Below, one piece after another: positions 8,674 to 30,211 of a stretch of 34,081 nt of DNA (its first letter is position 1; each line of letters opens with the position of its first letter). Source of the DNA: a virus; IMG/VR virus record IMGVR_UViG_3300031578_000194, positions 1 to 34,081 of that record; one strand, 5' to 3'. The notes beneath the pieces are model-generated. The model had not been told where the DNA came from. It worked only from the letters and a program-made list of their open reading frames with translations, and ran no database searches. The position numbers and the translations under genes are program-made.

Positions 8674-8683
8674 AAACTATAAT

Positions 8684-9109: not shown

Positions 9110-9110
9110 A

Positions 9111-10466: not shown

Positions 10467-10524
10467 GTTTTTCGCAATCTGTTTTTCAATTATTTATACT
10501 GTAAATAAAACTGTGATTTCCCAT

Positions 10525-10564
10525 AATCCCCACAATCCCCGGGGAATCCCCTTGCAAAATCCCC
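10525..10564. repeat. Cluster of four AATCCCC direct repeats
   Basis: AATCCCC occurs at 10525-10531, 10534-10540, 10545-10551 and 10558-10564, four copies in 40 bases with spacings of 9, 11 and 13. A palindrome TCCCCGGGGA lies at 10536-10545. It is in the spacer between two convergent operons, and the C-rich composition stands out in this A/T-rich genome. Possible roles are a protein-binding array, an origin-like or packaging site, or a decayed repeat; nothing here decides between them. Confidence 0.45.
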
Positions 10565-10590
10565 TATTTTAAAATGTATTAAAAAATGTG

Positions 10591-10619
10591 TTTTGTGTGT
10601 AGTTTTGTGTATTTTGTGT
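10591..10619. repeat. Three TTTTGTGT direct repeats
   Basis: TTTTGTGT occurs at 10591-10598, 10603-10610 and 10612-10619. They follow the AATCCCC cluster and precede the hairpin at 10635. The repeats resemble part of the Bacteroidota -7 promoter box (TTTG), but no correctly spaced partner box is visible and a terminator follows at once, so promoter activity is not supported. Confidence 0.4.
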
Positions 10620-10634
10620 ATAATTTACTAAAGA

Positions 10635-10668
10635 AAGGCCGGAAGTCAATACCTCCGGCCTTGTGTTT
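10635..10668. terminator. Bidirectional terminator hairpin between convergent operons
   Basis: AAGGCCGGA at 10635-10643 is repeated as its exact complement TCCGGCCTT at 10654-10662, a 9-bp perfect stem with a 10-base loop. The plus-strand transcript then has TTGTGTTT. On the minus strand the stem is followed by TTTCTTT. It lies between the stop codons of the rightward methyltransferase and the leftward portal gene, so it can end both operons. Confidence 0.85.
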
Positions 10669-10703
10669 AACAATAAACCTCAAATTATGAAAAAAAACTA
10701 AAC

Positions 10704-12698: not shown

Positions 12699-15600
12699 GG
12701 CTTATTAATATTTAATTTATCCAATTCATTAATTGCATCCTGGCGCAATTCTATCATTAAATTACTTAATCCTTCAATGCCCTGTAATCCTTCAATATCT
12801 TCTCCGTATTTATCTTTAAGTACTTTGAAATTTGATTCATAGCCTGAAAGTATCTCTATTGCCTTTGGGTAATCCCCGGAAATATATTTTTGTATTTCTT
12901 CAAGATCACCTTCCCTTATTGCTTTATCGGCAATTATTTTTGCATTGCTGATATGTTTTTTATAATCGTAATATTTTTCCAGAACTGTCCATTTCTCATC
13001 AGGAATTTTACGGATAAAGAAGTTTATAAATGGCCAGTCATAAAATTTATATTCCTCATCACCAGTAATAAATTCTCCCATTGTTGACATGAAATCATTG
13101 GTAAATCGTCCTACACCACCCAAATAACCACTGATAAGATGCTCGATTTTTGAGGGATTCCAATCGAAAATTCCGGGAACATATTTTAGTTTTCCGTCTT
13201 TCCCGTATCTGAATTTATATTCTGTCTTTCCTCCTCCCAGTTCAAAAAGTACGTCTGTTATAAATTTTGCAGCAGGATTCACGTATTTTTTATGAAGCCC
13301 CGAGTCCGCCAAATTTTCTTCAAGTTCTTTCGTAAATGCTTCATAAGATATTTTATTCCCCATGAAATCCTTGTTTATATCAATTTCCTGAATTGGTTTG
13401 ATCGTTGTAGGAATCAACGGGGCCCAACTTAATTTCCCTTCCTGGATGAAAGATGTTACATCAATTGGAGCCATACCTGCAATCAAATTGCTGATGCTTC
13501 TTGCAATTGCGGTACCGGGAGGTATTTTACCGTTAACATAATCATAAGTTGAAACACCCATTGCATGAAATCCACGCCAAAACTGAGATATGGGTACTCT
13601 CAGATACTCTTCTTTATTCCCCCAAAATTTTCGAATCACAAGATAATTTTCACGAACATAGTTATTTATCCGATAATACTTTTCATCTTCATTTTTATCA
13701 TCATCCCAATCATTTAGCATAGCTTCAAGAAATCCCCAGGCAAGAATAGCAGTAGCATTTTTTATGAATTTTCGGGGATTTATTTTTGTAAGTTGAAAGT
13801 TTTTTTGAAGGGCACTCATGCTAACTTTGAAAAAAGCATAGATAGATTCAATTGCACGGGTTCCCTTGCCCTTCATGTTAAAATCAACACTTGCATTACG
13901 ACTTTCAAATGCAGAATCTTTTATCGAAAGCCCCTTATCTCTGGCATCCATATAAACTCCAAAACGTGTTGTATCCTCAAAAATTCGATTCCAGTACTCA
14001 ATAATCCTGAATATTCCGGTTAGTTTATCCCAGGTTTTACCTACTGCCGTATCACTTCTCAAAACTCGTTTTAATTCTTTTTTTAGTTCTTTTTCAAGTT
14101 GTTTTATTGTTTTTTCATGTGTGAAGCCTGTAAATCCTCCGGCTTCCCCGCAATTTCTGTATTCAACATCATATTTATTCCCGGGATCAAAATTAGCTCC
14201 TATATTTCTTATAATAGTACGGGCAGCAACAGGAATATTTTTAGGAATTTTAGTAATCCGGGTATTCAGCCTTATATTTTGTGTCAGGGATGCTTCTAAC
14301 TGGTCCCGGCTGAAATTGGAAAACGGGAATACAGGATTATAGCCTGTCATCATGGCCTTCATGAAGTTTGTCCATGCTCCAAGCCCTCTGAATATCCATG
14401 TTTCCCCAAGTTTCCGGGCATCAAATACATGGCCTAAAAATTCAACCATGGTATTCTGATTATTGAATGCCTGGGCAACTGATAATTGTTTTTCCGGAAA
14501 CACTATAATTGTGGGTTCACCATTATTCATTACAATAACTTCATGCTGCAATGCATTCCAGACAGTTCTTAATTTTTCATGTTCCGAATTAACTTCAGTT
14601 TTAACTTTTCCCTCTTTGAACATTTCGACAGGTGGCCGGGTAAGATTACCGTTCTCATCACGATATAGCGACCAGACGTTCTCATACATTTGTTCCTGTT
14701 CATTCCATATCTCTTTTTCTACCAGATAAGCCTTTTTAATTTGATGAAGGTCTTTAAATTCTTTACCATAGTTTTCGAAAATAATTTTTAAAGCTTCCTG
14801 TTTTACTTCATTTGCTACTTGTTCATTGATAGCTTTAAATCCGACAGCCTGAATATAAGCTATTGGATTATCTGCAAGGCTTGTTCTTCCAAATGCCCTT
14901 TTAAATGAAGCTCCAATACCATAACCCTCGTTTTTGTATCTTAAAAACTTTGCAGCTCCTTCCCGCCAGCCTCTTAGCGGAATGAAATTATCATATCTTT
15001 CTTTCAGGTAATCATAAGTTTTTTGACTTATTTGTCCTCCTTTAAGCCAGGTATTAAGAGTATAATCAGTTGCCTTACGTGTATTTTCCCAAAGTTCTTC
15101 TACAAGTACAGGGTCAACCTGGGATTCGAAACCTTTTATTATTGCCTCTGCCAGATCATCTACATTTTCAAATTTCTTTTCCAGATCAAAAGAAAGTAAT
15201 CCGGCAAAATCCATGCTTTCCAGTTTATCTTCATAATCAAAAAGCTCATCCATTGTTGCATCAGGATTTCTCTTTTGAAATTCTTCCAATTTTTCTTCTC
15301 TCATTACACGGTTACGCTCTAAACCATGTTTGCATATCATATATGGAAGAATACCTTTTGATTTCATCCCGGACTTAATAATCTTTGTGAAACTTTTTGT
15401 TATCGGTTCAATATTTTCCTGCTGAAATTCTTCATATAGTATTTCCATCCGACCAAACATATTTCGGATATCACGATATGAATCGGCTTTTGTTTTTTCT
15501 CCTTTGTGTTCAGTATCGGGAAGTTTTCCTCCATGTTCAATAACTGCTTCTTGCCACCGTCTTATTGGAAAATTATCATCAATCCAAAATTCGCGCATTT

Positions 15601-16372
15601 TATCAATGGTTTCCTTAGTCGGAGGTTTTCCTTTTTCTTTTTCAGCATAAACTTCCATCGCTGTTCTGTGAGCCTCAATATTCTCATCCAGAAAATCATT
15701 GTTATTTAAAACAGCATTTTGCGCTTTTGTTATTTTTTGTTTTATGGGAGGTTTTTCATTCGGATTATCCTTGTAAAATTTCTCCAACGCCTTTAGGTAA
15801 TCAGGCAATGAAGGGTAATTCTCTTTTTTAGGTTTTTCAGGTAGACCGTATTTGCTTTCCGGTTCGAATAATGGCATCCCCTCCCTTAATGCCGATTCTT
15901 TCATCTGTGGGGTAATGGGTAGGGATTGAACTTTTATTCCAGATTGTTTCCATTGGTCAATTTTTGATGGGTCAACATTATTCATAACCATATTACCATC
16001 AATATCTGAAATCTCATAAAAACCATTGTTTTTTAATCTGATTTTAAATTTTGGTACACCAATATCCGTTTCCTCCACTCTCGCCCCGAACTTCTTACCT
16101 AAACTGTTTGCTGCATTTCTGACTATCTGGTCATAAAAGGCTTTCATTCCTTCGCCTCCTACTTTTAGGTCAAGACCGGAAAACTTCATTCCTTCTTCAT
16201 CTTGCATTATTTTTTCAGCAAGGTCTTTCCCTACAACTTCGTCAAGATTTTTTCCTACAAGTTCAATTCCTGTACTCCCGTCAACTTCAAATATTTTCCC
16301 ATCTGCATCAACTTGTAATTGTATTTCCTGATTATTTTCCTTCATTTTGATGAATACTCGCCTACTATTCAT
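12695..16372 (-). CDS. Large polyvalent protein continuation with LPD38-type domain (1225 aa)
   Basis: I use ATG 16372 as the start, which overlaps the stop of the giant gene (ATGAATAG, 8 bp). A TTG at 16396 in the same frame would lengthen it by 8 residues, and ATG at 16345 is another choice. The first ~170 residues contain LDLKVGGEGMKAFYDQIVR (about 60-78), NSLGKKFGA and ITPQMKESALREGMPLFEPE (about 150-170). These normally follow AERYDLSKQVD in the same polyvalent protein, so this gene looks like the severed C-terminal continuation of the 4079-residue protein. The C-terminal region has GYNPVFPFSNFSRDQ (about 677) and RFGVYMDARDKGLSIKDSAF with ASVDFNMKG (about 803-838), as in the LPD38 polyvalent domain. 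A virion-borne role with the portal is inferred. Confidence 0.75.
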   Translation of the reverse strand: MNSRRVFIKMKENNQEIQLQVDADGKIFEVDGSTGIELVGKNLDEVVGKDLAEKIMQDEEGMKFSGLDLKVGGEGMKAFYDQIVRNAANSLGKKFGARVEETDIGVPKFKIRLKNNGFYEISDIDGNMVMNNVDPSKIDQWKQSGIKVQSLPITPQMKESALREGMPLFEPESKYGLPEKPKKENYPSLPDYLKALEKFYKDNPNEKPPIKQKITKAQNAVLNNNDFLDENIEAHRTAMEVYAEKEKGKPPTKETIDKMREFWIDDNFPIRRWQEAVIEHGGKLPDTEHKGEKTKADSYRDIRNMFGRMEILYEEFQQENIEPITKSFTKIIKSGMKSKGILPYMICKHGLERNRVMREEKLEEFQKRNPDATMDELFDYEDKLESMDFAGLLSFDLEKKFENVDDLAEAIIKGFESQVDPVLVEELWENTRKATDYTLNTWLKGGQISQKTYDYLKERYDNFIPLRGWREGAAKFLRYKNEGYGIGASFKRAFGRTSLADNPIAYIQAVGFKAINEQVANEVKQEALKIIFENYGKEFKDLHQIKKAYLVEKEIWNEQEQMYENVWSLYRDENGNLTRPPVEMFKEGKVKTEVNSEHEKLRTVWNALQHEVIVMNNGEPTIIVFPEKQLSVAQAFNNQNTMVEFLGHVFDARKLGETWIFRGLGAWTNFMKAMMTGYNPVFPFSNFSRDQLEASLTQNIRLNTRITKIPKNIPVAARTIIRNIGANFDPGNKYDVEYRNCGEAGGFTGFTHEKTIKQLEKELKKELKRVLRSDTAVGKTWDKLTGIFRIIEYWNRIFEDTTRFGVYMDARDKGLSIKDSAFESRNASVDFNMKGKGTRAIESIYAFFKVSMSALQKNFQLTKINPRKFIKNATAILAWGFLEAMLNDWDDDKNEDEKYYRINNYVRENYLVIRKFWGNKEEYLRVPISQFWRGFHAMGVSTYDYVNGKIPPGTAIARSISNLIAGMAPIDVTSFIQEGKLSWAPLIPTTIKPIQEIDINKDFMGNKISYEAFTKELEENLADSGLHKKYVNPAAKFITDVLFELGGGKTEYKFRYGKDGKLKYVPGIFDWNPSKIEHLISGYLGGVGRFTNDFMSTMGEFITGDEEYKFYDWPFINFFIRKIPDEKWTVLEKYYDYKKHISNAKIIADKAIREGDLEEIQKYISGDYPKAIEILSGYESNFKVLKDKYGEDIEGLQGIEGLSNLMIELRQDAINELDKLNINKP

Positions 16373-19300
16373 CAATGGTGTATTTCTTACAATCAACTTG
16401 TTTACTCAAATCATACCTTTCAGCCTGCATTTCTCCATTAGTCCATGCAACTTTATCAAATCCGTTTTCTGCTGCATAGCGGATCATCCTTCGTAATACA
16501 AGATTTACCCATTGAGAGGTTTGTTTGAAGGGCATATCGGGAACATCATCATGTTCTTTAAAATAACCTGTTTTTTTTGCTTCACGAATTGCATCATCTT
16601 TATTTTCTTTTCCTAATCCAATTTGGTTCCCATGCTCATTATAAACTTTCCATAACTTGACATCGCGCATTGAATAAAGCAAAGTTGTTTTATCATCTTG
16701 TTTTACTGTCCATCCCTCTGGTAATGTAAGTTCAGGCAATTTTTTGTCTTTAAATCCCTCCTTTCTCCCTTTCTCTGCCCAGTCAGACTGAATTTCTTCC
16801 AGGAATAATACTTTCTCTCCACTCTCTAAATTTCTTTCGTTAAAACGGACGTGTGCAAGTATGTTGGGTTCGTCGAAGTGGGAAGATTTGAAATAATTAT
16901 CTTCGCCTAATTTTTGAATTTCAGCCCATTTATCTCCCCATTCTTGTTCTGCTATTAATTCACGTTCTTGTTCTAATTTTTCAACTTTAGGTAAAATATC
17001 ATCGGTTCTTCCTTCTCCTGAATGAATTTTTTTAAGAAGTGTATTGATTTTATCAGTATAATCCCTCCATTCCTTAGTGTTTTCTGCCTGCTGTCTTATT
17101 TCTTTTTTTAATTGCTCAATTCTTACTTTTCTTTTTTCCCATGTCGGCATCGTCAACAATACCTCTTTGTAGTTCTCTCCCCCGGGAAGTTGCCATTGGG
17201 AAAATTTGGTATCGTCTGCATATTGCTTATATTCGTTTTTTGCCGCTTCTTTAGCTTCAAATACTGTTGTAAACCATGCTATTTCTTCATTGTCTTTTAA
17301 TAGTAAAACCTCTCCATTTTCGTAATCGTGAATTGTAAGCCCTGTATTAGATGTATATGATATAACACCAGTACCCTGATTTGCGTCATTCCAATAAATA
17401 CGTGTTTCTTTGGATTTAATTCCTTTTGTAACTTCCTCAATCTCAACCTTATTCTGATTAATCCAGTCCTGAATATCGGCTTTGGTAATTGATTTTTTTT
17501 TCTGGATTTGTGCTTTTTGATAATCCTTATCGATCTTATTCCATTCTCTCACTAACTCTTTTTGGTTGTTAGTCAAGAATGGCGAATCTTCTTTAACTTC
17601 TTTCCATTCACCATTGACAACTTTAGAAAGCGTATATTCTCCTGCGTGTTCTGTATCGTCACCCCATTGCATATCGTCAATTTCATGCTCTTGAAGTTTA
17701 TCGTAAACAGCATCCAGTTTAGCTTCATACTCATCCAATACACCAATATTTTCAGTAAATGCTTCATCCCATCCCATCCAGTCCAGTTCCGCTTCTTTGG
17801 CTCCGTTTTTAAGCAACATAGCTTTCATTTGGTCCGGAGTACCTTTTTCTTGTTTTATGCTCTGCAGGGCTTTCTCTGTGGGGGAATAAAATACCTGTTT
17901 TGTTACCGGACGACCGCCGTAGGTGGCTTGTGGTTCTTGTACTATTCCTTCGTTTAACTTTGAGATGATGATTTCACCTGTTTTATCAATTTCTCCAGGT
18001 CCTTCTCCTCTAATTTCTTCACCTGTTTTATCAATTTCTCCACGTCTTTCACGTCTTTCTCCGGAATATGGTCTTTCACGAATAATTCCTTCATGAATTC
18101 CAACACGGAGAGCAGAGTATCTTTGTCCATCATCTCTCTCTTTAAGAGTTCGTGATAAATTTTTTGTACTGGACTTATTGTATTCATGTTTTAATCTCCT
18201 ATAAGTTTCGAAATGTTTTTGATACAAAATTCGTAATAATGGTTGGAAATAAAAAATCTCATCAGCCATTTTTGCATATAAATCAGATATTTCGATTGCA
18301 AATCTTTCATCATGCCCTCCTGGTGATCCTTCATGGGCAAGTTCATGTAAAAAAACATGCAGGGTATTTTGTATTGCTTCATTAATAGTATTATAATCCT
18401 TACCTAATGGATTGAAAAAGATAGCATTTAAAATTTTCTGAACATGTACACCTGCGTATTCCTTGTCAATAGATATACCTGTGAAATATTTTACATTTCC
18501 TCCTCTAATTTTTTCATAACCGTATCCCATCACGTCTCCTGCCCTTTTAACAAAATCTTTTAAAACGGCTCCCAGGTCAGCAAAAAATTCAATTCCACCT
18601 TCCATACCCATAAAATCCACATTTGTATTATTATGCATTTGCGGATCATCAGGATTAAGAAATTCAACATCTACTTCGGCGCCTTCTATTTCTCTTTTGG
18701 CTTGAAATGACGTTTCATATTCTTTTTCTGTTTCTATTTTTTTATATCCCGTTCCCGAAGGAATATAAATATCTTCATACCGGATTATTATACGCGCATA
18801 TTTTGGAATTTCTTTTTCGATATTAAATTCCTTGTTTAATTCCCTGATTTTTGATGCATACTCTAATGGGGAAACTTTCGCTCCCTCGACGAGGCTTTTA
18901 TTAATATCCACTTTTGGCAATGGTCTTAAATCACTAAAAGTGGCAGCAGCTTCTTTTTCTGCTTCTCCGGATGCAAATTTTCTTATGTAATTTCCAAGTT
19001 GCTTAATATCATTTTGAACAGCAGGAGAAAATGCTTCCCTTTGATTGTTAAAAGGATAATATTCATCCGTTGGAGCTACATAAGATTTGATATTTACTAT
19101 TATATCATAGGGTATTTTATCAAATTCCCTAAATATAAATGTATGTTCAAACTGATAAATTCCGGCACTTAAAACCTCATGGGTTGGGTACTCTTTCTTT
19201 TCTTCACTCATATAAAGATCAGCCTCTCCCCAGTTAAACTCTGCGGTTGTAAACAAAGAGGGAACTTTTTCTTTTGCATTGTTACCACTGGGTAACATCT

Positions 19301-22300
19301 GCTCATGTTCCCGGCCATAAGATATTGCTTTAAAGTTTACATTAACATTTCCAAGCAGGGGCCGTTTGAGAATACTGAATGCCTCCCATTTTTGTGCAAT
19401 GTCATTCCATTTCCCGGGGAAATTTATCTCTTTATCCGCTCCGTAAAAATCCGTATAGGATCCTGGTATGGTAATACGTACCATTGTCCCGTTTGGTTTA
19501 TTGGTATGTTCTTTTTTAAGCTTAAAACTTCCGTTATATAATTCAAAATTGGTAGTATTAATTGTAGTTGTTAAACCGTCTCTTGTCGTTTCCAGTTCTA
19601 TTCTTTCACTACCCAGTAAAAATTGAACCTTAGCCAATCCAAAACCTCCGGAACTTTCCCCTACTCCCAATCCTTCCTTACTTGTTCCTCCTACTGTAAG
19701 AAATGCATTTTTTACAATATCCGGGGTCATTCCAACTCCATTGTCTCTTATTTCAATTGTTCTTTCATCATAATCCACTTTAAAATCTATTTTCCCTTCT
19801 TCTCCGGTCTTTGTCGTCATGGCTTTGACTGCATCAAAACTGTTTTGCAGTAATTCTTTTACAGCTACCTGTGCAATCGGAGCTTCATACATTTTAGAGC
19901 CTAACAGTTGAAGCATCCTTTTCTTGTCAAATGCCAGTTCTGCACTTTCTTCACCTACATCAAATGATTGAAAATTAATTTGTTTTTGACTGGGTGTTAA
20001 TTTTGATTCTCCTTCATGTACTTCATATTCCCCTTCCGGTTCATATAGCATTCCCTCATCGGCCATACTTTCGTAATTGGTAATGATATTTTCATCTTGT
20101 TTTATCGTTAATACATCTAAAAGTTGAGAATCAATTGGTTGTAAAGCATTTTTTATTTTACGTACTGTTTCTATGGTTATCATTCCATTAGAGGCCAGAA
20201 TTATATTATTCCCATGCCTGCCAACATCTACATATAATTGTTTTATGAATTGACTGACAGGAGTGGTTTCATCAATAAGATAGTAACGATTAATATTATT
20301 ACCACGGTCAAGAATTAACACGTGAGTTTTATTTGTGGTACCTCTTTTTTGCTTACTTAAAAACAAGGCGACATCATGGGAACTTCTGATTTGTGTTCTG
20401 TCTTCTGAATTTACATAAAATTTCTGCTTTTCGAACTGGTAAACTCTGATAGGTTGAATCTTCCCCCTAACCTCTCTTTTTTCGTAAATATCACCATAAG
20501 CAGAAAGAATATCAATAATAGCATATTTTCCTTTATCTATATCAATAATAACAGATGGTAAATATTCAATACTCATTAAAGTACATGCTTCTTTAAGTTT
20601 TTTGCTAATATTTATATCTGCAGCAGATGCCATTAAAGTTCCGCTGGGATGATTGTGTACAAAACTAACTTTTACTGCATTAAATTCTGCCGCTGCTGCC
20701 ATTATAAGTTTATGATCGATTACAGTACCCGCTGTTCCTCCTGTGGATAAATATTGTACCCGGTAATTCCATTTTTTATCAATCAATACAGCAAAGGCAT
20801 GTTCATTGGTTGCTGATTCCAGGTTTTTGAAAAGAAAAGCAATATCATTTGGAGATTCTATTTTTGCCGAGCCGGTTAACTGTTCTCCCATGAACGTTAG
20901 ATATCCTTTATCGGATAACTGACGTTCCATTGCTGTCAATCTGTTGTCGATATCGGGGATATAATTTCTTTTCCGTTGTATATCACGGGTGGCGGGGTCA
21001 GAACCGAAGGCGGGATCTCGTTTTGCTGATACAGTTTTATCTTCCCAGTCGAGTTGGGTTTGGATCGCCTCTTCTTTGTATAGAATTTCTTCATTTTTTG
21101 TTTTTTTCTGCAATTTACTACTTTTTTCCGGTGTTTCCAATACATCAGCAAGAGCAACTTTATACCCTGCACGTGTCAATTTAGGAAGATAGTTATCAAG
21201 ATTAAAAACTGGAAATCCGGCTCTGGGATTCCCGTTTGGACTTTTTGTCAATACTGTTCCTAAATTTTTTGAAACTTTAATCGCATCATCCCCAAAGGTT
21301 TCATAAAAATCACCACTACGCACTAAAACTATACTATCCGGATGCTTCTGTTTAATTTTTGTATATGTTTGTTCAGCATCAGAATAACTTGTGAAAGGTT
21401 CATATAAAATTGTCTGGCCATCTTCCTGTTTTTCCTGTATGGTGTCAAAAAATTGCTGGAATGCTTCGTTTATTGCCGGTGTTTCTTCTTTTGTCGGATA
21501 TGGATAATTATTCGTGTCAAGTCCTGATTTTATCCATTCTTCTGTTTCTTTAAAGTTTGCCAGATAATCATTTTGCTCATTTGTTGCTCCTAATTTTTCG
21601 ATAATAAAATTTTCGAATGAACGTGCCGACATTTCTTCTATCGTTGACCAGTATAAATCACTTCTTGTACTGTCCAGTTTCTTACTCCTGTTTGGTAATT
21701 CGGATTTTCTGATAGTTTCAACTACGTTCTTAAATGCGTCAATCAATTCCGTTCTTAATGATTCATCTGGGGCAACCTCCCTGCCAACAACATTCATTTT
21801 TTGTCTTGGAGATTGTGTTAAAAATCCTGATTTATCACCTCGTTTTCGTGAAAAATAACTATCTAAGGCGTGCCACCACTCATGCGCCAAACTTCCTGCA
21901 CCCCTTGTTTTTGTAAGATTAATAACTACCTGTCCTGATTCATAATGTGCTGAATATTTTCCCGATCCTCTGGCCCCAAATGCTATTCCCAATTCACCAC
22001 CTAAAGACAATGCCCGCGAAGATACATTTAACGCTGTGGACAAATCCATTAAAGCATCACAAGCCTGGTTCAGGTCATTCTGTCTTTTGTCGTTCTCTAC
22101 CCAATTACCAAACTGTACACCCCTAAACCCAAATGTATTTCCAAATTCTTCTGGTGTTATATTTTTTCCATTACGGTAATCTGTTCCTATTCTTTTACGG
22201 TTTGTTTCCCTACGTTCTTCCGGCTTTATATTTACAGAATTCCAAAGTTCCTGTAATTGTGCCATTTCGTTTTTAACCTTATTTCTTGCTTCCTGTACTG

Positions 22301-25300
22301 TTTCAATGCCATCAATTAACCTGAATACCCCGGTTGCTGTTTTCTTTCCAATAAAATACTTGCCTGTTTTCCGGTCTTGATAAATACTAAGTTTTACATC
22401 TTTCGATTTTTCTTTGTTTGCAGCAAACATCTTTTTTAATGCGTCTGCTGCTTCTTGTGCTGTTTTATGATCTGATATTATATAAGGACTTTTTACAATA
22501 GAATACGTTGTCCCCAACACATTTTCTGCTTTTTCTCCCCTATGAAATTTTTTAATTTCATAAACTCCCATATTAATATCTTCATTCGGGAAACCTAACG
22601 CTTTTTGTACTTCTTCAAATAGATTGAACTTATTGTTTAAATTGGTCATTAATGGCTCGCGTAACTTGTCAGCTATCTTTTTACCGTTCTCTTTATTATC
22701 AAGTAAATCAGTGAATATATCAATATCCTGCTGTACTGTTTTCGCCCAACCTTGCAATCTATATTGCTTTCTTGGTTTTGGAGGAATATTATCATAGAGA
22801 AACTTTAAAACAAGTGCGCCGTCTTCTGATAATGTGCCGTCCTTTACCAATTGGACAAAGTCAGGACGTGGAAATGTTTTTGAAAGTGGCTGGTTTATAA
22901 TATCCGTTTCGGTAACATCGTTAAGCCTTTTGTAAATCATTTTTTTGGCTCCTTCGATTTTCTCTCCAAAATCTTCAATCTTCTTTGGTTGTTTACTTAT
23001 TTCATCCAGTTTCATTTCAAGCGGTAAGACTGGAGTTTCAGGTTCAATAGGTTTCTTTTCAAGTTGTAATTTGTCAAATTCTGAAGCATAGTCACGGCCT
23101 CTTTTGCTGACGGCTGAAAATTTATTGAAATCGGCACCAAAGAGAATATAATTCTTGTCACTGAGTTTTTCAATAACATCACTGCCATATTTTTGACTTA
23201 AATTACTTCTTGTTAATCTCGATGGAGCCGTAACCTTGTTGATCTCATTTAAAGCAATGGCCTCTTTTTCGGTTAATCTGGTTCTTTTATAAAATTCACT
23301 GAGGCCGTGTTCTTCCAGTTTCTTCTCAATAGGTAATTTAGTGGGAGTTTCTTCAATCTTTTCAACAACATTTAGAGGAAATGATTTTTGTAATTTTTGT
23401 CCGGATAGATTTTTCCCAAAGTAAAGTGTAACCCAGTTATTTTCATTCGGATCAATCCAGCTTTTTACAACTTCTCCTTCTGTACCAACCGGGATGTTAG
23501 CATAAAAGTGTGTAACACGGTATTTTTCTCCTTTTTGTGGAAGAGTTGGTTTTTCTGCTGGTGTAAATTCTTTATACTGAGTAAAAGGTTTCAGTTTTCT
23601 TGTTCCGCTATCCAGCCATTCTTTGAATTTTTCTTTCGATACCTCGGTAATATCCCTTAATCCCTTCCATCCGGGTTCATAATTGGAAAAGTATGCCTGT
23701 CTTGCATCATCTTCGGTATCAAATCCTAACATGACTTTGTGTTCGTCAAACTCAGCGGAGTTTTCCGGATTAACCTGGTCAATGATAAATACATTATCCG
23801 AATCGGGATTATCTCCTAAGAATACATCAATCTGATCCCCGTCCTTTCCTTTTGTCCTTTTGAAATAGCCGTAGGTGTTATTTAATTTCCGTGTCCACTC
23901 TTTCCCGGTTTTGTCGGTTCCCGATCTTTCGCTGCCCCGTGGGTTTTCTATGGTAATATCAAACCCTGCAAAATTCACATGCCCTTTCTTGTAGTTGCCG
24001 GCTTCCTTCTGTGCATCTGAAGGGAAAAGTTCTACTTCGGATTCAGCTTGTTGGAGTTCTAACTCCGGTTTCCCTTCATCCTTCGGCTGTGCAAACATGT
24101 CCCCCTGGGCCTGCGCTGCATTTTTAGAATCATCAACGGCCTTCTCCTGTTGTTTGATTAAATCAAAGTATTCTTTCTGACTGGCTGTAATTTTGTCTTT
24201 TAGTGGTTGGAGTACTCTGTCCATATTTTCCTTGGACAAATCTGCCGGAATATCAAAGATTATTCCCCCGTGTTTTACACTTTCCCTGTCATCGGGACTT
24301 TTATTAAATTCTCTTATGATGTGATGCTTGGCCTTCTCCAAGTCCCTTACGGATTCATCCGTTCTGTATTTTGCCTGATTGATTTTCTTTTCATATTCAT
24401 CGATGGCCTTTTTTGCTAAATCTTGTTGTGCCGGGGTTAATCCGGCAAGTTTTTCCTGTAGTTTTTTCTGTCGGGTTTGGTCGGCTGTTTCTATTTCACC
24501 GAATAAAGGTTGTTGTGTAGGTTTTACCAGTTCGGTTGGCACTGTTGGAGGTACTGGGGATACTGGAGTTATCTCCAATGGAACAGGTTTGATCGGTTCT
24601 ACTGGCGTTATTAATTTGAATTCCTGCTTTGGTTGTTCTTCTGGTTCTTGGTCAGAGGTTTCTTTTTTCTCGTCTGCCCTCCTCTTTGCTATCTGTTCCG
24701 GGGTTAATTTTATTAATTCCCCTGCCTGCATACGATAATCGGAATTGTTAATAATACCCTGTGCTTTGAGGTATTCCTGGCGGTCTGCTTCTACTGCGTC
24801 AAAAGATGATGGACCTATGGCATTTATGATTTCTGCTGCCCATAATACCTCCTGTGGCGTTTCCTGTTCGGGTTTTACTTCTGTTTGTTCAACCTCTCCT
24901 GGTGGAGTCTGTTCATCAATTCCACTTTCATCAGTCTCATCTTCTCCTCCAACTTCTTGTTCGGATTCATCGGTGAACCATTCTTGTTCTGCTCCTCTTG
25001 CTCTTGCGATTTCATCATTCAAATAATTTGTTATTACAATATAATCATTTTCGCTTAATCTGTCAATATACTTATCAACAACTTCTAAAGCTTGTTCTAA
25101 TGTGAAATATTCATTTATGAGATTATTTTCATTAATGAACTGGTTAAATAGTGTTTTCCCTTCTTCCTGCTCTACGGGTTTCTCGTATTTGTCTATTGTT
25201 TCTCCAAACACTTCCCGGTATCTCCTTCTCAATTCCCATTGTGTCCCTGTGGTTTTTCTTATGTTCTTGTCCGGGTTGGCCAGCATGAAATCAATAATAT

Positions 25301-28300
25301 CTTTCACGGTGAATGGTTCCATGCCTCCCCCTGATTGCTCTATCTGATCATTCCATTCAGAAACGAATGTATCAATAGGCTTTCCGTCCTTTTGTAACCA
25401 TGCCCTGGCAAATGTCCGGCTGTCAACTAAATTTCGGTCTGCCAGTCTGTTGAAACTGTCTGTTGAGAATATTTCATTAATAGCGACCTTCTGCCACTCA
25501 TCCATTTTGTTTATTGGTGCACTGGCTTCCTCGTCTTTATATGCATTAAATATCTCATCCTTATCCTCGGAATAGAGACTTATGTATTCGTTATCGGTTC
25601 CCGTCCATTCTTCTACGGGTATCGGAGGCTGTTTTTTAAATTCTTCGAGTTCTGCCTTGCGCCTTAACTCAGTGAGTTTTTCCCTTTGTTTTTTGAATAC
25701 ACTATTGTAAGTGATTAAATTATCCCTTTGTTGTTCAAATGGTAATTTACCGAATCCCTTTCGTGCCTGTTCAAGTTCTTCCTCGGTCTTGGCTTTCTTA
25801 ATGTTAATAAATACTTGGTTAACAAGTGACATTTCTTGGGAACTTTCAGCCTCTGGCATTTTTCCAACAGGTTCTATTTTAGGTATTTCCAGTTTTATTT
25901 CGGGTAACTTTTTGTCCTGTTTTTGAAAAATCTTTGCAGGTTTAGGTGCTTCCGGCAATATTCTGATGGCTTTGATGATCTTTTCAGTAACCGGTTTTTG
26001 CCAGGGAAATTCCGGAGTTTTTTCTATTTGTTCGGTAATCAGTTGAATTCTGTTTTCTTCTCCTGGCAGAGTACTTTTTATTTCTTTTTCGACTCTCCGG
26101 GGATCCATTCCATCTGGTATCTGAAATTCAAATACTCCTTTCTCATCCGCTGTATATTGATAATCAGTTTTCCCTATCCGGGCGGTGTTTATAACTTGTT
26201 CTTTAGGTTGTATTTTTTGTGGTTCTCCTTCTGGCTGTCCGGTTACTGGTGGCTGGGCTTCCGCTTGTATTTTTTGTTGTTCTAAAAGTTGTATTGATTC
26301 CTGTTCTTTTTGAATTAACTCCTGTTTAGGAACTTCAATAGGTGTTGATTGCCCATCCCAGAGTATGTAATATTCTCCTAAATCATCTGTAATTTGATAT
26401 TCCTTATCCTGATAAGTTATACGTTCTCCGACCTGGGGTTGAAGAACATTCTGTTCTATTCCTGTATCAAAACCTTGAATCAATTCCTGAATAACAGCAT
26501 CGGGTTCTTTCGTCTCCCAGTTTCTTACTGTTTTAGTGGATACCGGTTTGGGCTCTCCTGTCTCATCATAAACTATTATCACTCCGGAAGGATTATTCAG
26601 ATCGCCGTCTTTGACATTGAAAAGTTTCCCCTCCTCATTCTGTACCGTGATAAATTTCCCGCTCGTGTGTAGTTTGTTTTTAACAGTATTTTCTGCCCTG
26701 TTTTGTATAATACCTCGATAAAACTCGATCTGTTCTGCTGGTGTTTTTGGTGCCGGTGGAGGTGGTGTTCCTTCCGGTGTTCCTTCAATTGCTTTTGGAC
26801 CAGGTGTTACCTTTTTTGTAAATAGATTATCATAACCGGCCATCATTGCCCGGTAAAATTCATCCGTAGTAACCTGGTGAGGATTTTTAAGTGTTGATTC
26901 CTGAATATTTGGAATTATTTCACCGGCTTTATTGATGATATTAACAGTTCCCGGTCTGTCGCCTTTTCCTGCTATATATCCTATTTGCCCTTCATCAGAT
27001 TCAATTGTTCTGATAATTCCGGTTTTATCAGCTATTCGGCTACCATAATTTACTACCCTTTGTGAATAGGCATCCCGTTCCAGTGTTTGAGGTGCCTTTC
27101 CTGTTTCCTTATAAATTTGAGTTGCTTGGTTAAAAACTTTTGTAGGAATTGTAAAGGATTTTTCAACCATTTCGGAGGTAACATCTATAATTTTGCCATC
27201 CGGTGTTAATCCTCTTTGTTTTCCGCCTTTTGTGGTTGGAATAATTTCAACCGGATTACCTTTAGCATCCATAGTAAGAACAACATCACCTTGTGCGTTT
27301 CTTCTCTGTGTGTTTGTCTCGTTCTGAGAATGAATAGCAAATGGACCGGTCATCAGACCAAAAAGTATTCCTGATCCTGTTGAATGCACAACTGTATTCC
27401 ACCATTCTTGAGGTTTAACATCACGACCAATCAGAAAATCATCAACTGCCAGCTTACTTAACTGGATACTGTTCATTGTTAATGCACCTTGGCCAGCTGA
27501 TTTTGCAAGTTGTATTGCCAGTTGAGGTTGTTTTTTCATGAATTCCTCAAAGACTGCCTTGCCAAATTTTCCAGTCAGTTCCGGACTTGTTGTCAGACCT
27601 TTTGCAACTGCCTTGTTAACAACTCCCTTCGGTATCATTTTCCCCAGATATCCACCAAACGGAACAGCATAAGCAGCGGCATACAATACGCCTGCCCCGG
27701 TTCTTGTTGCTTCATCAACCGGTTTTCCTGTTTCCTTTGCATGATTATCAACTGCTTCAACTCCTTCACCATATCCCATTTCGGCAAACATTCCGGTCAT
27801 GGCCGTCGCCATTGCCGGACTTTTTGTTAATGCCGTGGCTATTGCCATTCCTGCAAAGGGTAATAATCCTCCAACAAACTCCCCGGGACCTCCGGAAAGT
27901 TCAGGAACATTCTTCGTCCAGTTTTTTATATCCTCAACATTTCCTTTTATCCGTTCATCCTGAGAAAGAAGATAATTCTGCCATTTATCATTTTCTGATA
28001 CCTCTTTAAGAAGATTATTCAGTTTCAGGGACTGATCTTCAACTGCCAGCGCCATGGAACCTAAAGCTGATTTCCCTGCTGCCAGAAATCCATGTCCTAA
28101 TCCTTTTACTTGTTCTATTGTTCCTTTTGGTCCGGCTGTTTTCCAGTACCAGGATTCTTTTTCAGGTTCTATTGATTGTGAAGTTTCCTGCTCTGTTAAT
28201 TGTTCATCCTTCCATTTTGCTTCTTCCGGTTTGATTTGTGGCTTAATCGTATCGGATGGTAGTAACGGGGTAATTCCGGGGGTGACTGATTTATCTTGTT

Positions 28301-28604
28301 GTGTTTCAGGAATTTTTGTTTCTGTTTGTAACGGGGTGACGTCACGGGGTAACTCTTGTGTTCCTCCGGCAAAATCAAAATTATATTTTTGGGCTATATT
28401 TTTAAAAACACTTTCATTCAGTCTTTTTGCCTTTTCGGGATTTTCTTTTTCATAAATTCCACGGACAATATCTTCATAATTAGCCTGATAGGAATTGATA
28501 ATTTTATCATAAACCTCTGGCTTTAACCGTTTGGCTTTTTCAGGATTTTCATGTAGGTATAAATCTTGAATCATTGATATTAAACTATCTCTATTGTCTG
28601 TCAT
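16365..28604 (-). CDS. Giant polyvalent protein (4079 aa): pyrophosphatase, LPD1/metallopeptidase, MutS-I, RadC pair, GHKL ATPase
   Basis: One open frame of 12.2 kb. Domains in order (approximate residues): a 35-residue tandem repeat at 15-74; hydrophobic Ala/Gly-rich segments at about 240-420; Pro/Glu-rich linkers; an inorganic pyrophosphatase-like domain at 1535-1665 (GHVNFAGFDITIENPRG, DGDQIDVFLGDN). Next come an LPD1 region at about 2155-2255 with HEWWH at 2241-2245, a MutS domain I-like segment at 2400-2490 (VRSGDFYETFGDDA), and a RadC/JAB domain at 2555-2710 with HNHPSG at 2650-2655. A degenerate RadC copy follows to about 2855, then a GHKL ATPase (KELLQNSFDA, DNGVGM, SGGFGLAK at about 2916-2990), HELAH at 3420-3424 and a FSQWQLPGGENY/QAERYDLSKQVD domain at 3800-4072. 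Such multi-domain proteins are thought to be injected with phage DNA to counter host systems. The gene ends in a stop inside its last domain. Confidence 0.85.
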   Translation of the reverse strand: MTDNRDSLISMIQDLYLHENPEKAKRLKPEVYDKIINSYQANYEDIVRGIYEKENPEKAKRLNESVFKNIAQKYNFDFAGGTQELPRDVTPLQTETKIPETQQDKSVTPGITPLLPSDTIKPQIKPEEAKWKDEQLTEQETSQSIEPEKESWYWKTAGPKGTIEQVKGLGHGFLAAGKSALGSMALAVEDQSLKLNNLLKEVSENDKWQNYLLSQDERIKGNVEDIKNWTKNVPELSGGPGEFVGGLLPFAGMAIATALTKSPAMATAMTGMFAEMGYGEGVEAVDNHAKETGKPVDEATRTGAGVLYAAAYAVPFGGYLGKMIPKGVVNKAVAKGLTTSPELTGKFGKAVFEEFMKKQPQLAIQLAKSAGQGALTMNSIQLSKLAVDDFLIGRDVKPQEWWNTVVHSTGSGILFGLMTGPFAIHSQNETNTQRRNAQGDVVLTMDAKGNPVEIIPTTKGGKQRGLTPDGKIIDVTSEMVEKSFTIPTKVFNQATQIYKETGKAPQTLERDAYSQRVVNYGSRIADKTGIIRTIESDEGQIGYIAGKGDRPGTVNIINKAGEIIPNIQESTLKNPHQVTTDEFYRAMMAGYDNLFTKKVTPGPKAIEGTPEGTPPPPAPKTPAEQIEFYRGIIQNRAENTVKNKLHTSGKFITVQNEEGKLFNVKDGDLNNPSGVIIVYDETGEPKPVSTKTVRNWETKEPDAVIQELIQGFDTGIEQNVLQPQVGERITYQDKEYQITDDLGEYYILWDGQSTPIEVPKQELIQKEQESIQLLEQQKIQAEAQPPVTGQPEGEPQKIQPKEQVINTARIGKTDYQYTADEKGVFEFQIPDGMDPRRVEKEIKSTLPGEENRIQLITEQIEKTPEFPWQKPVTEKIIKAIRILPEAPKPAKIFQKQDKKLPEIKLEIPKIEPVGKMPEAESSQEMSLVNQVFINIKKAKTEEELEQARKGFGKLPFEQQRDNLITYNSVFKKQREKLTELRRKAELEEFKKQPPIPVEEWTGTDNEYISLYSEDKDEIFNAYKDEEASAPINKMDEWQKVAINEIFSTDSFNRLADRNLVDSRTFARAWLQKDGKPIDTFVSEWNDQIEQSGGGMEPFTVKDIIDFMLANPDKNIRKTTGTQWELRRRYREVFGETIDKYEKPVEQEEGKTLFNQFINENNLINEYFTLEQALEVVDKYIDRLSENDYIVITNYLNDEIARARGAEQEWFTDESEQEVGGEDETDESGIDEQTPPGEVEQTEVKPEQETPQEVLWAAEIINAIGPSSFDAVEADRQEYLKAQGIINNSDYRMQAGELIKLTPEQIAKRRADEKKETSDQEPEEQPKQEFKLITPVEPIKPVPLEITPVSPVPPTVPTELVKPTQQPLFGEIETADQTRQKKLQEKLAGLTPAQQDLAKKAIDEYEKKINQAKYRTDESVRDLEKAKHHIIREFNKSPDDRESVKHGGIIFDIPADLSKENMDRVLQPLKDKITASQKEYFDLIKQQEKAVDDSKNAAQAQGDMFAQPKDEGKPELELQQAESEVELFPSDAQKEAGNYKKGHVNFAGFDITIENPRGSERSGTDKTGKEWTRKLNNTYGYFKRTKGKDGDQIDVFLGDNPDSDNVFIIDQVNPENSAEFDEHKVMLGFDTEDDARQAYFSNYEPGWKGLRDITEVSKEKFKEWLDSGTRKLKPFTQYKEFTPAEKPTLPQKGEKYRVTHFYANIPVGTEGEVVKSWIDPNENNWVTLYFGKNLSGQKLQKSFPLNVVEKIEETPTKLPIEKKLEEHGLSEFYKRTRLTEKEAIALNEINKVTAPSRLTRSNLSQKYGSDVIEKLSDKNYILFGADFNKFSAVSKRGRDYASEFDKLQLEKKPIEPETPVLPLEMKLDEISKQPKKIEDFGEKIEGAKKMIYKRLNDVTETDIINQPLSKTFPRPDFVQLVKDGTLSEDGALVLKFLYDNIPPKPRKQYRLQGWAKTVQQDIDIFTDLLDNKENGKKIADKLREPLMTNLNNKFNLFEEVQKALGFPNEDINMGVYEIKKFHRGEKAENVLGTTYSIVKSPYIISDHKTAQEAADALKKMFAANKEKSKDVKLSIYQDRKTGKYFIGKKTATGVFRLIDGIETVQEARNKVKNEMAQLQELWNSVNIKPEERRETNRKRIGTDYRNGKNITPEEFGNTFGFRGVQFGNWVENDKRQNDLNQACDALMDLSTALNVSSRALSLGGELGIAFGARGSGKYSAHYESGQVVINLTKTRGAGSLAHEWWHALDSYFSRKRGDKSGFLTQSPRQKMNVVGREVAPDESLRTELIDAFKNVVETIRKSELPNRSKKLDSTRSDLYWSTIEEMSARSFENFIIEKLGATNEQNDYLANFKETEEWIKSGLDTNNYPYPTKEETPAINEAFQQFFDTIQEKQEDGQTILYEPFTSYSDAEQTYTKIKQKHPDSIVLVRSGDFYETFGDDAIKVSKNLGTVLTKSPNGNPRAGFPVFNLDNYLPKLTRAGYKVALADVLETPEKSSKLQKKTKNEEILYKEEAIQTQLDWEDKTVSAKRDPAFGSDPATRDIQRKRNYIPDIDNRLTAMERQLSDKGYLTFMGEQLTGSAKIESPNDIAFLFKNLESATNEHAFAVLIDKKWNYRVQYLSTGGTAGTVIDHKLIMAAAAEFNAVKVSFVHNHPSGTLMASAADINISKKLKEACTLMSIEYLPSVIIDIDKGKYAIIDILSAYGDIYEKREVRGKIQPIRVYQFEKQKFYVNSEDRTQIRSSHDVALFLSKQKRGTTNKTHVLILDRGNNINRYYLIDETTPVSQFIKQLYVDVGRHGNNIILASNGMITIETVRKIKNALQPIDSQLLDVLTIKQDENIITNYESMADEGMLYEPEGEYEVHEGESKLTPSQKQINFQSFDVGEESAELAFDKKRMLQLLGSKMYEAPIAQVAVKELLQNSFDAVKAMTTKTGEEGKIDFKVDYDERTIEIRDNGVGMTPDIVKNAFLTVGGTSKEGLGVGESSGGFGLAKVQFLLGSERIELETTRDGLTTTINTTNFELYNGSFKLKKEHTNKPNGTMVRITIPGSYTDFYGADKEINFPGKWNDIAQKWEAFSILKRPLLGNVNVNFKAISYGREHEQMLPSGNNAKEKVPSLFTTAEFNWGEADLYMSEEKKEYPTHEVLSAGIYQFEHTFIFREFDKIPYDIIVNIKSYVAPTDEYYPFNNQREAFSPAVQNDIKQLGNYIRKFASGEAEKEAAATFSDLRPLPKVDINKSLVEGAKVSPLEYASKIRELNKEFNIEKEIPKYARIIIRYEDIYIPSGTGYKKIETEKEYETSFQAKREIEGAEVDVEFLNPDDPQMHNNTNVDFMGMEGGIEFFADLGAVLKDFVKRAGDVMGYGYEKIRGGNVKYFTGISIDKEYAGVHVQKILNAIFFNPLGKDYNTINEAIQNTLHVFLHELAHEGSPGGHDERFAIEISDLYAKMADEIFYFQPLLRILYQKHFETYRRLKHEYNKSSTKNLSRTLKERDDGQRYSALRVGIHEGIIRERPYSGERRERRGEIDKTGEEIRGEGPGEIDKTGEIIISKLNEGIVQEPQATYGGRPVTKQVFYSPTEKALQSIKQEKGTPDQMKAMLLKNGAKEAELDWMGWDEAFTENIGVLDEYEAKLDAVYDKLQEHEIDDMQWGDDTEHAGEYTLSKVVNGEWKEVKEDSPFLTNNQKELVREWNKIDKDYQKAQIQKKKSITKADIQDWINQNKVEIEEVTKGIKSKETRIYWNDANQGTGVISYTSNTGLTIHDYENGEVLLLKDNEEIAWFTTVFEAKEAAKNEYKQYADDTKFSQWQLPGGENYKEVLLTMPTWEKRKVRIEQLKKEIRQQAENTKEWRDYTDKINTLLKKIHSGEGRTDDILPKVEKLEQERELIAEQEWGDKWAEIQKLGEDNYFKSSHFDEPNILAHVRFNERNLESGEKVLFLEEIQSDWAEKGRKEGFKDKKLPELTLPEGWTVKQDDKTTLLYSMRDVKLWKVYNEHGNQIGLGKENKDDAIREAKKTGYFKEHDDVPDMPFKQTSQWVNLVLRRMIRYAAENGFDKVAWTNGEMQAERYDLSKQVDCKKYTIDE
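17973..18042. repeat. In-frame 45-bp repeat in a linker of the giant gene
   Basis: An identical 25-bp stretch occurs at 17973-17997 and 18018-18042. The 45-bp offset is 15 codons, so the repeat keeps the frame and encodes GEIDKTGE twice. It lies in a Glu/Arg-rich linker between the HELAH domain and the C-terminal domain, and probably arose by a recent duplication. Further short CGTCTTTC repeats follow at 18043-18058. Confidence 0.8.
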
Positions 28605-28607
28605 ATT

Positions 28608-29615
28608 TTAAAAATCAAATGGATCGTTTTCTGATTCTTCTTTTGCTGGTTTTCTCTGCCCGGAATCTCCGTATTTGTTCAAAATATAGTCATAACTTGA
28701 AGGTGTTTTTTCCCAGTATTTTTGTATTAATGTATTGATTGTATTGGTAGAAAGAGGTGTTCCGAATTTAGCTTTCAGAAGATCCATTTCTTCTGCAGTT
28801 ATTTTGGACAACGGGTCCTCTAAGATAAGAGCTATAATTTTCCCTCTTTCATCATCAGGAATTGAAACAGAATTACCTTCACTGTCATAAAGTGAATATG
28901 TTTTAGTGCTTTCAGCCGGGTATTGCGCTCTTAATGCCTGCGCCTGTGCCCTTAACATCCCTGCAATTTCCATCTGTTTATTATGTCGTTCCCTTTCGGT
29001 TGCAGTCATATCTTTATATGCTATATCAACTTCGAATTTTTTCATAGCCAGATCCTGATCTGTTTCAGCTTTTTTAGCTTGCCATTCCCTCCATACCTGT
29101 TCTGACATAAAACCCAGTTCTTTCCATTTTTCCTGGCTTTCAAACATTTTTTCCCGTAATTTCCGTTCTTCTTCCAGGTTCGCTTGCGACAATGCCAGAT
29201 CACCCATCTTCAATTTATTCACATAATCCTGCCAGTTCCATTCATCTTGCCTGCGATTAACTTCATCTACATACTGATACATTGATTGTAAATAACTCAG
29301 TTCCCGATCATCCTTTTGCCGGGGCCGGACGTTTGCTCCTAATCCTAATCCAATAACATCACCCACAAGATTTAATCCTTTGCCTATCACTGAAGCCTTT
29401 GCAAGTCTTTTGAGTTCTTCTGGTCGGTTCGGATCATACGTAGGTTTAGGCGGACTATAAGAGAAAATATTATCAATAATTTTCTGTGTTGGCGTCTTGG
29501 GAGTATCAATATTTTGATTTGCTTCTGCGAAACGATGCTGCGGAAGAATACCTTCATAGTCAAAGAATGATTCTTCCGGAGACTTTCTATTCACTTTTTG
29601 CGGTTCTGCTATCAT
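28608..29615 (-). CDS. Internal virion (ejection-type) protein with coiled coil (335 aa)
   Basis: Residues about 73-96 (ASVIGKGLNLVGDVIGLGLGA) form a hydrophobic Gly-rich segment. Residues about 105-230 are highly charged and helical with heptad-like spacing (QANLEEERKLREKMFESQEKWK), suggesting a long coiled coil. The rest is low in complexity, ending ESENDPFDF. It begins 2 bp after the preceding gene and ends 3 bp before the giant polyvalent gene. A hydrophobic element next to a long coiled coil beside the ejection-type 197-residue gene fits internal virion proteins of podoviruses that leave the capsid with DNA. There is no family-level sequence proof. Confidence 0.65.
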   Translation of the reverse strand: MIAEPQKVNRKSPEESFFDYEGILPQHRFAEANQNIDTPKTPTQKIIDNIFSYSPPKPTYDPNRPEELKRLAKASVIGKGLNLVGDVIGLGLGANVRPRQKDDRELSYLQSMYQYVDEVNRRQDEWNWQDYVNKLKMGDLALSQANLEEERKLREKMFESQEKWKELGFMSEQVWREWQAKKAETDQDLAMKKFEVDIAYKDMTATERERHNKQMEIAGMLRAQAQALRAQYPAESTKTYSLYDSEGNSVSIPDDERGKIIALILEDPLSKITAEEMDLLKAKFGTPLSTNTINTLIQKYWEKTPSSYDYILNKYGDSGQRKPAKEESENDPFDF

Positions 29616-29617
29616 GA

Positions 29618-30211
29618 TTAATTTCCTAATAAAATTCCACGATAAGGCTCAATATTTTTCAAATTCTGCATGTTCCCGGGAGAAAGTATTGGTATCTTAT
29701 TTGCAACATCTTCAAAACCTGTTAATGTTGTTGCACTTTCCATCACATTACCGGCATTGCCAGCCAGGTTAGCCGCTTGTTCCGCTTTTTGTTGATTTAA
29801 AAACATCTGTTGCTCTGTCAACCTGCCCTTTTCTCCCCGATAGATAGCTTCCTGGCCTTGTTGATATCGTGTTGCTCCCTGAGCTAACCCGGAAACAGCT
29901 TCATTATATTTTTCCTGCACTTTTGTTTTTTCAGCTATTTCAGCTTCCGGAGTGGCACCAGTCACGGCTGCAGTACTCGTAATATTCTTATTCGCTTCTT
30001 GTATCTGTTTCCGCAACTGCTCAAACATCCCTTTTGCAGCATTCGTTTCAAGGAAATCCCTGTTTACATTCAAGTTATAAAATGCTTCGTTTTCCTCTAA
30101 CTGCTTATTGAGTAAGTTTTGATTCGCCTGGTTTGCCTTTCCTCCCTGTATTCCTGCAAATATCTGTCCGGCCAGAGATGCGGCTCCTAATCCTGCTGCT
30201 ATTAATCCCAT
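29618..30211 (-). CDS. Internal virion/DNA-ejection protein with N-terminal hydrophobic helix (197 aa)
   Basis: The protein begins with a Gly/Ala-rich hydrophobic helix, GLIAAGLGAASLAGQIFAGI, followed by a Gln/Asn-rich helical region (ANQANQNLLNKQLEENEAFYN) and an Ala-rich second half. This shape (short membrane-active N-terminus, long Gln-rich helices) is typical of internal virion proteins such as T7 gp14 that form an ejection channel, and I infer that role. It is the first gene of the leftward ejection operon, with the late element copy B 58 bp upstream. The start is ATG 30211 with an A/T-rich leader and no Shine-Dalgarno. Confidence 0.7.
   Translation of the reverse strand: MGLIAAGLGAASLAGQIFAGIQGGKANQANQNLLNKQLEENEAFYNLNVNRDFLETNAAKGMFEQLRKQIQEANKNITSTAAVTGATPEAEIAEKTKVQEKYNEAVSGLAQGATRYQQGQEAIYRGEKGRLTEQQMFLNQQKAEQAANLAGNAGNVMESATTLTGFEDVANKIPILSPGNMQNLKNIEPYRGILLGN

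Follow-up and report, generated by a model that had tools for sequence, protein, structure and literature searches.

A conserved GHKL ATPase–zincin cassette in giant polyvalent proteins of uncultured phages

Introduction

Is the pairing of a GHKL ATPase with a HELAH-type peptidase in one giant phage protein a peculiarity of a single chain, or a unit in its own right, and what might such a unit do? The question is raised by an IMG/VR record of an uncultured bacterial virus, all 34,081 bases of which were analysed and are here called the window. The original prediction, made from the letters alone, described a 4079-residue polyvalent protein with an unusual domain set, singled out the GHKL–HELAH pairing and suggested a DNA-repair or defence-countering toolkit delivered with phage DNA. 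Phage-type polyvalent proteins are characterized by LPD, InPase and MPTase families (Iyer et al. 2017, PMC5512222), and we asked where the GHKL–HELAH pairing stands among them.

Results

A truncated reading of a polyvalent protein

The giant reading frame, P0001, is real, opens with ATG and runs for 4079 codons (Table 1). The predicted polyvalent nature stood but the predicted length did not, as the 4079 residues are only part of a chain of about 5,303 residues with an LPD38-bearing tail. Another record, IMGVR_UViG_3300031673_000386 (L002, L003 and L014), matches the window over 21,992 bp, identical bar one mismatch and one 2-base gap, and in L002 and L003 the regions of P0001 and P0002 form a single stop-free frame up to the portal gene. 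Counted from P0001 residue 1082 to its end this chain has 4222 residues, which gives the intact length. Relative to these copies, the window carries a 2-bp deletion within 16365–16410 that splits the giant frame into two overlapping ones. The frameshift may have arisen in assembly, or the copy may truly be broken; an intact copy exists in L002 and L003. At the other end of the protein, two short repeats (ENPEKAKRL...) open the chain within residues 1–70 (window 28396–28604).

Pfam places InPase, LPD5, LPD1, MutS_I, RadC and HATPase_c in this order along P0001, all exceeding curated cut-offs and with match strengths far above chance. The InPase metal-site segment DGDQIDVFLG lies at residue 1588, MutS domain I keeps its Phe-X-Glu pair (FYE at 2433–2435) and the GHKL region is matched by HATPase_c and HATPase_c_3 (residues 2912–3021, 2e-7). 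RadC had been called active, in agreement with an intact predicted metal (JAMM) motif, HNHPSGx4SxxD. Pfam and motif matches thus uphold most of the predicted domain set (InPase, LPD1, MutS-I, RadC, GHKL and two HExxH motifs), except that HEWWH falls outside LPD1; Pfam also found LPD5 and LPD38, which that set lacked. A block spanning P0001 3572–4079 and P0002 30–220 (window ~15740–17891) contains KVLFLEEIQSDW and GGEGMKAFYDQI and matches no Pfam family; it is common to L084, and a small part also occurs in L004.

Table 1 Features of the polyvalent locus in the window
Feature	Position	Strand	Remarks
P22-like portal gene	10704..12698	(-)	directly downstream; PF16510 E=3e-31; phrog_156
ORF P0002	12695..16396	(-)	1233 aa as read; C-terminal continuation of P0001 protein
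LPD38 (PF18857)	13055..13687	(-)	near C-terminus of continued chain; Pfam E=2e-21; also in uninterrupted L002 ORF
ORF P0001	16365..28604	(-)	4079 aa; N-terminal and central part of polyvalent protein; end truncated by frameshift
Zincin domain of cassette	18102..18722	(-)	residues 3295-3501; HExxHx5-6H
HELAH zinc-binding motif (predicted)	18333..18347	(-)	residues 3420-3424; third ligand position H3431
Transducer-like domain of cassette	18822..19376	(-)	residues 3077-3261; Foldseek HSP90, GyrB-43K and MutL alignments extend through region
GHKL ATPase domain of cassette	19380..19961	(-)	residues 2882-3075; Pfam, 60/60 invariance, model, Foldseek
RadC / JAB (PF04002)	20541..20858	(-)	residues 2583-2688; Pfam E=5e-19
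MutS domain I (PF01624)	21111..21374	(-)	residues 2411-2498; Pfam E=2e-20
LPD1 (PF18796)	21429..21677	(-)	residues 2310-2392; Pfam E=2.6e-20
First zincin-like motif HEWWH	21870..21884	(-)	residues 2241-2245; between LPD5 and LPD1
LPD5 (PF18799)	22134..22484	(-)	residues 2041-2157; Pfam E=3.6e-26
InPase (PF18823)	23613..24017	(-)	residues 1530-1664; Pfam E=1.2e-56
335-aa protein	28608..29615	(-)	immediate upstream neighbour (3-bp gap); resembles internal virion proteins in position only
197-aa protein	29618..30211	(-)	second gene upstream; no confident family

Judged by its sequence, the window protein belongs to a known kind, the phage-type polyvalent proteins, because it combines InPase, LPD1, LPD5, LPD38, MutS-I and PHROG matches to giant phage proteins with a P22-like portal. 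InPase, LPD5, LPD1, MutS_I, RadC, HATPase and LPD38 share one frame in L002, the portal gene lies directly downstream and a terminase is encoded within the window. The giant multidomain architecture, the InPase, LPD1, LPD5, LPD38 and MutS-I domains, the zincin motif and the adjoining portal are likenesses to the polyvalent proteins of Iyer et al. In contrast, the main text of that paper (PMC5512222) makes no mention of GHKL, histidine kinase, HSP90 or gyrase, and the window chain has a GHKL domain.

One close relative, L004 (45–10000), has a portal 77% identical to that of the window and shares the N-terminal ~1,250 residues of the polyvalent protein (44–47% identity). No InPase, MutS-I or GHKL match was found in it, and the central block is missing except for a RadC domain. 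Since the two proteins share an N-terminus but differ in the centre, we conclude that the polyvalent centre is swapped between related phages.

The GHKL domain and the zincin are inherited together

A DNA pattern built from the peptidase alone, HE[LF]AHx4GHDxxF, hit four viral contigs, and in all four a GHKL domain lay upstream in the same giant frame. Over more than 600 residues, the window segment aligned with L011 and L013 at 28% identity (E=1e-53 and 5e-58). A five-copy alignment together with a pattern from the GHKL N-box only then retrieved 135 IMG/VR relatives; the 80 contigs with the best whole-module scores were kept, and 60 non-redundant copies (<85% identity) were aligned. HExxH was present in 60/60 of these modules, although the GHKL N-box was the sole pattern in their retrieval. 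Each scan baited one domain and recovered the other, which means that selection does not account for the linkage, even though the 80 retained contigs were the top scorers for the whole module. Single-sequence queries with the window against viral and genome contigs gave only the same phage or nothing, and portal-based scans gave only three relatives.

The pairing is thus not unique to the window protein: the cassette is a homologous unit of ~640 residues, comprising a GHKL ATPase, a transducer and a WLM/YgjP-like zincin, on at least 135 IMG/VR contigs. Invariant in 60/60 copies are the N-box E, Q, N and D, the G1 D and G, the following K, the G2 glycines, A and K, and the transducer Y, P and R, as well as the H-E-H of HExxH in the zincin; at the third zinc-ligand position 55 copies have H and five have E. 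In the window these correspond to E2917/Q2920/N2921/D2924 (N-box), D2954/G2958 (G1), K2976, G2986/G2989/A2991/K2992 (G2) and, in the transducer, Y3183, P3184 and R3189 (YPFxxxRE). The attention drawn to the GHKL–HELAH pairing was therefore warranted, with predicted ATP and zinc sites kept throughout.

The order from GHKL to zincin is fixed and their spacing is 454–534 residues (five divergent copies). Across the 60 copies, pairwise distances correlate strongly between ATPase and zincin (r=0.88) and between transducer and zincin (0.94), against 0.44 and 0.41 when the ejection protein from these phages is the partner (34 phages with both). GHKL ATPase and zincin are thus one inherited unit, as their aligned sequences indicate. 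As this co-inheritance occurs amid otherwise unrelated carriers, we conclude that the unit moves as a cassette among giant virion-linked proteins.

Predicted fold and affinities of the cassette

Modelling of residues 2850–3500 had been proposed, and AlphaFold2 on the 60-row alignment gave a confident model of the whole cassette (pLDDT 83.6, pTM 0.78). Foldseek against the PDB matched it to the ATPase and transducer domains of HSP90, GyrB, ParE and MutL. The N-box (ExxxN), G1 (DxGxG) and G2 glycines are present in a modelled Bergerat fold, so the GHKL domain is predicted to bind ATP. HSP90, GyrB and MutL resemble the cassette in the ATPase and transducer fold and in the N-box, G1 and G2 motifs, but have no attached zinc peptidase.

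Modelled alone, the zincin reached pLDDT 87.9, with HExxH in a helix; HExxH and an H or E at position 3431 occur in 60/60 copies, consistent with a zincin metallopeptidase. Its best PDB fold match was selecase (probability 0.96, E=0.08), followed by weaker matches to other zinc peptidases; none reached E<0.001. By sequence, Pfam WLM matched 23/60 members (best 5.9e-6) and YgjP-like 19/60, and profile matches included proabylysin and Wss1. We did not assign the window protein to the WLM (Wss1-like) family: its WLM score of 12.6 bits (E 0.14) lies below the curated cut-off of 26 bits, as does that of L077 (24.1 bits), and no Wss1 was among the fold matches listed. MPTase-PolyVal (PF18818) matched 1/60 members (E 0.088), which does not support membership. 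The zincin family thus appears weakly resolved, with WLM scores mostly below the Pfam cut-off. WLM/Wss1, YgjP-like proteins and the minigluzincins selecase and proabylysin share the HExxHx5H(xxxF) motif with the cassette zincin, which differs from them in its weak scores, its fusion to GHKL and an extra conserved N-terminal part (HNNTNVD, FFAELG).

Among viral structure models, the sole fold match to the full cassette was A0A516L4L2 (UniProt, viral, a 1404-aa piece), with E=1.3e-42 over 704 columns at 24% identity. Other viral models, chiefly rIIA, topoisomerases and HSP90, matched mainly the GHKL part, with E from 3e-13 upwards.

Searches of deposited phages, plasmids and the literature

The full module was found in none of 50,697 deposited phage records queried with five copies and in none of 72,556 plasmids queried with two, and a zincin-only tblastn search against the deposited phages gave no match. 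Plasmid matches annotated as "ATP-binding protein" (L006–L009) covered the GHKL part only, with HExxH in none, and were set aside.

Matches in tblastn prompted us to consider rIIA. T4-like rIIA proteins have an N-terminal GHKL ATPase (PMC7824862), and rIIA, like the cassette, is a phage GHKL ATPase; it gave the best GHKL-only match both in deposited phages and in viral structures. We reject this identity, as the zincin replaces the rIIA C-terminus and the three rIIA proteins checked have neither HExxH nor the YPFxxxR element. Additionally, the rIIA gene is followed by rIIB outside a virion-protein cluster, whereas cassette carriers sit in a virion-gene context, and among viral models the lone full-module match (1e-42) stands against 1e-11 for rIIA.

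In the open-access literature, no paper was found with both "GHKL" and "zincin", although an earlier unlabelled listing in the domain archive of Iyer et al. is possible. The terms "GHKL ATPase", "metallopeptidase" and "phage" together returned only a jumbo-phage survey with two GHKL passages, on topoisomerase and rIIA. The polyvalent protein is of an already known kind; the GHKL–zincin cassette is its new part, unnamed so far.

Carriers and their genomic context

Complete carrier frames are mostly 2,300–4,400 residues long, and carriers include LPD38, LPD39 and ART-PolyVal domains. Across 86 cassette loci, MutS-I, InPase and LPD5 were found in none and RadC in one (L079); the EEIQSDW block occurs in one other carrier (L084) and an LPD38-type tail in about eleven. 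A second HExxH lies elsewhere in 33/60 carriers (35 seen against 0.96 expected from composition), mostly in the usual polyvalent style; the remaining 27 have none, some of their contigs being cut.

Genes for a DNA-ejection protein (phrog_4287, E=3e-18) and for a virion structural protein (phrog_3287) precede the carrier gene at L075. A profile made from this ejection protein found one homologue each in 54/86 loci; in 53 of these it sits upstream, no more than 3 kb from the module gene. The counts are not fully independent because some loci are overlapping or redundant records. The homologue adjoins the module gene (~45 bp or less) in 14 loci and lies 1.3–2.8 kb away, a gap of about one gene, in 39. 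This placement suggests that the carrier belongs to the internal proteins that leave the capsid along with the DNA, and the same may by analogy hold for the window. The 335- and 197-aa proteins upstream of the window gene were considered as ejection proteins and rejected, as neither matched the profile; the sole PHROG match of the 335-aa protein is unnamed (3.8e-4). The case for packaging in the window therefore rests on domain class, portal linkage and the related loci, by analogy with which the polyvalent protein is probably packaged in the virion and injected into the host. The original prediction of delivery with phage DNA is thus likely, as related loci place the gene at the end of a cluster holding the ejection-protein family.

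Some carriers are arranged unusually. L084 encodes a 5,219-aa polyvalent protein (8636–21289) with the cassette, three ART-PolyVal stretches and LPD38. In L015, L016 and L017 a 3.2-kaa upstream frame abuts the module gene; that of L017 (3–9749) gave no Pfam match. In L052 the cassette occupies a 901-aa frame (9542–12244) flanked by slightly overlapping frames of 903 and 980 residues, possibly a split polyvalent gene. An alignment-based genome scan found two cassette fragments, both in metagenome-assembled genomes (MAGs): one on a Neisseriaceae MAG contig in two overlapping frames (L094), the other on a Woesearchaeota MAG contig, cut at the contig end (L095). These may be phage contigs binned with the MAGs, and no cassette beyond the source MAG was found in 398 Pseudomonadota genomes.

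Discussion

GHKL proteins with a transducer domain, such as HSP90, GyrB and MutL, act as ATP-closed dimeric clamps. From homology, conserved sites, co-inheritance and the observed position of related loci we infer packaging and injection, ATP gating and a substrate, and we give roughly even odds to the cassette being an injected, ATP-gated metallopeptidase, part of a ~5.3-kaa capsid-packaged polyvalent protein. Such a protein would travel inside the capsid and leave it together with the DNA; its GHKL and transducer domains would bind ATP, dimerise and close as a clamp, as in HSP90, GyrB and MutL; and the attached WLM/YgjP-like zinc peptidase would then cleave a protein held or admitted by the clamp. 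By this analogy the GHKL clamp may gate the peptidase through ATP, the clamp, and hence ATP, setting its access to substrate. The capsid, unlike the host cytoplasm, is not expected to contain free ATP, so the ATPase would silence the peptidase until arrival. More tentatively, the cassette could be an "arrival" protease, with a clamp that is open in the ATP-free capsid and closes in the host, switching the zinc peptidase on by a GHKL-driven rather than an AAA+ mechanism. The substrate might be a host protein or the polyvalent chain itself, the former being slightly favoured.

Cleavage of the chain itself deserves consideration, as zincin peptidases of polyvalent proteins have been proposed to process the chain (PMC5512222). 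The cassette zincin might cut its own polyprotein after injection, once GHKL meets ATP, and so free InPase, MutS-I, RadC and other domains. Other domains flank the cassette on both sides within the chain, and a trigger at arrival is what an ATPase that senses ATP could well provide. However, a further HExxH zincin, of the type usual in polyvalent proteins, is already present in 33/60 carriers, and routine processing is therefore probably not the whole role of the cassette zincin; the 27/60 carriers without one leave room for self-processing. No shared cleavage site was seen, though none would be expected as neighbouring domains differ completely between carriers, and the 901-aa frame of L052 also fits poorly. 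Self-processing thus seems possible but doubtful. We consider it unlikely that the cassette is an ordinary mosaic, in which recombination joined the domains and GHKL and zincin act independently, without ATP gating. Polyvalent proteins typically combine unrelated enzymes (PMC5512222), and L004 lacks the whole central block, RadC excepted. Against this stand the fixed order and similar spacing, the conservation of both sites in 60/60 copies and the co-inheritance at r=0.88 while the remaining carrier sequence is unrelated.

The repair or counter-defence toolkit of the original prediction would have a MutL-like clamp load near lesions recognised by MutS-I and a Wss1-like peptidase strip proteins stuck to DNA (host defence, crosslinks), with RadC assisting. 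The kept FxE pair of MutS-I and metal motif of RadC fit such a role, the nearest named Pfam family of the zincin is WLM, that of Wss1, GHKL and transducer also match MutL, and RadC precedes the cassette in the unrelated carrier L079 too. Yet the similarity to WLM and YgjP is weak and confined to the metal motif, and the matches to HSP90 and GyrB are no poorer than that to MutL. It also tells against the toolkit that MutS-I accompanies the cassette in the window's phage only: among the 86 cassette loci, RadC lies upstream once and MutS-I never, and the function of the cassette is therefore independent of them. We regard the toolkit as improbable, and return to the injected, ATP-gated metallopeptidase as our preferred reading.

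In the general view, ATP-dependent proteolysis relies on a peptidase that works with an AAA+ ring. The cassette, in which a GHKL clamp carries a zinc peptidase and both sites are invariant, would be a coupling other than AAA+; that it is widespread among the virion-linked giant proteins of uncultured phages suggests an important step early in infection. If the arrival-protease reading is true, uncultured phages of a large group would carry a GHKL-driven zinc peptidase in their virions. There is also an annotation gap: no Pfam family matches the window peptidase above cut-off, and the queries used did not find the unit in the deposited phages or plasmids.

The window chain also departs from the known polyvalent repertoire. 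Published lists confine InPase and LPD38 to phage polyvalent proteins and RadC to those of conjugative elements (PMC5512222), in contrast to the window, where InPase and RadC share one phage chain. The restriction of RadC to conjugative elements no longer holds, because RadC is also found in the polyvalent proteins of L004 and L079. The exact domain order of the window protein was seen only in the window's phage, and comparison of this phage with L004 indicates rapid swapping of the protein's middle.
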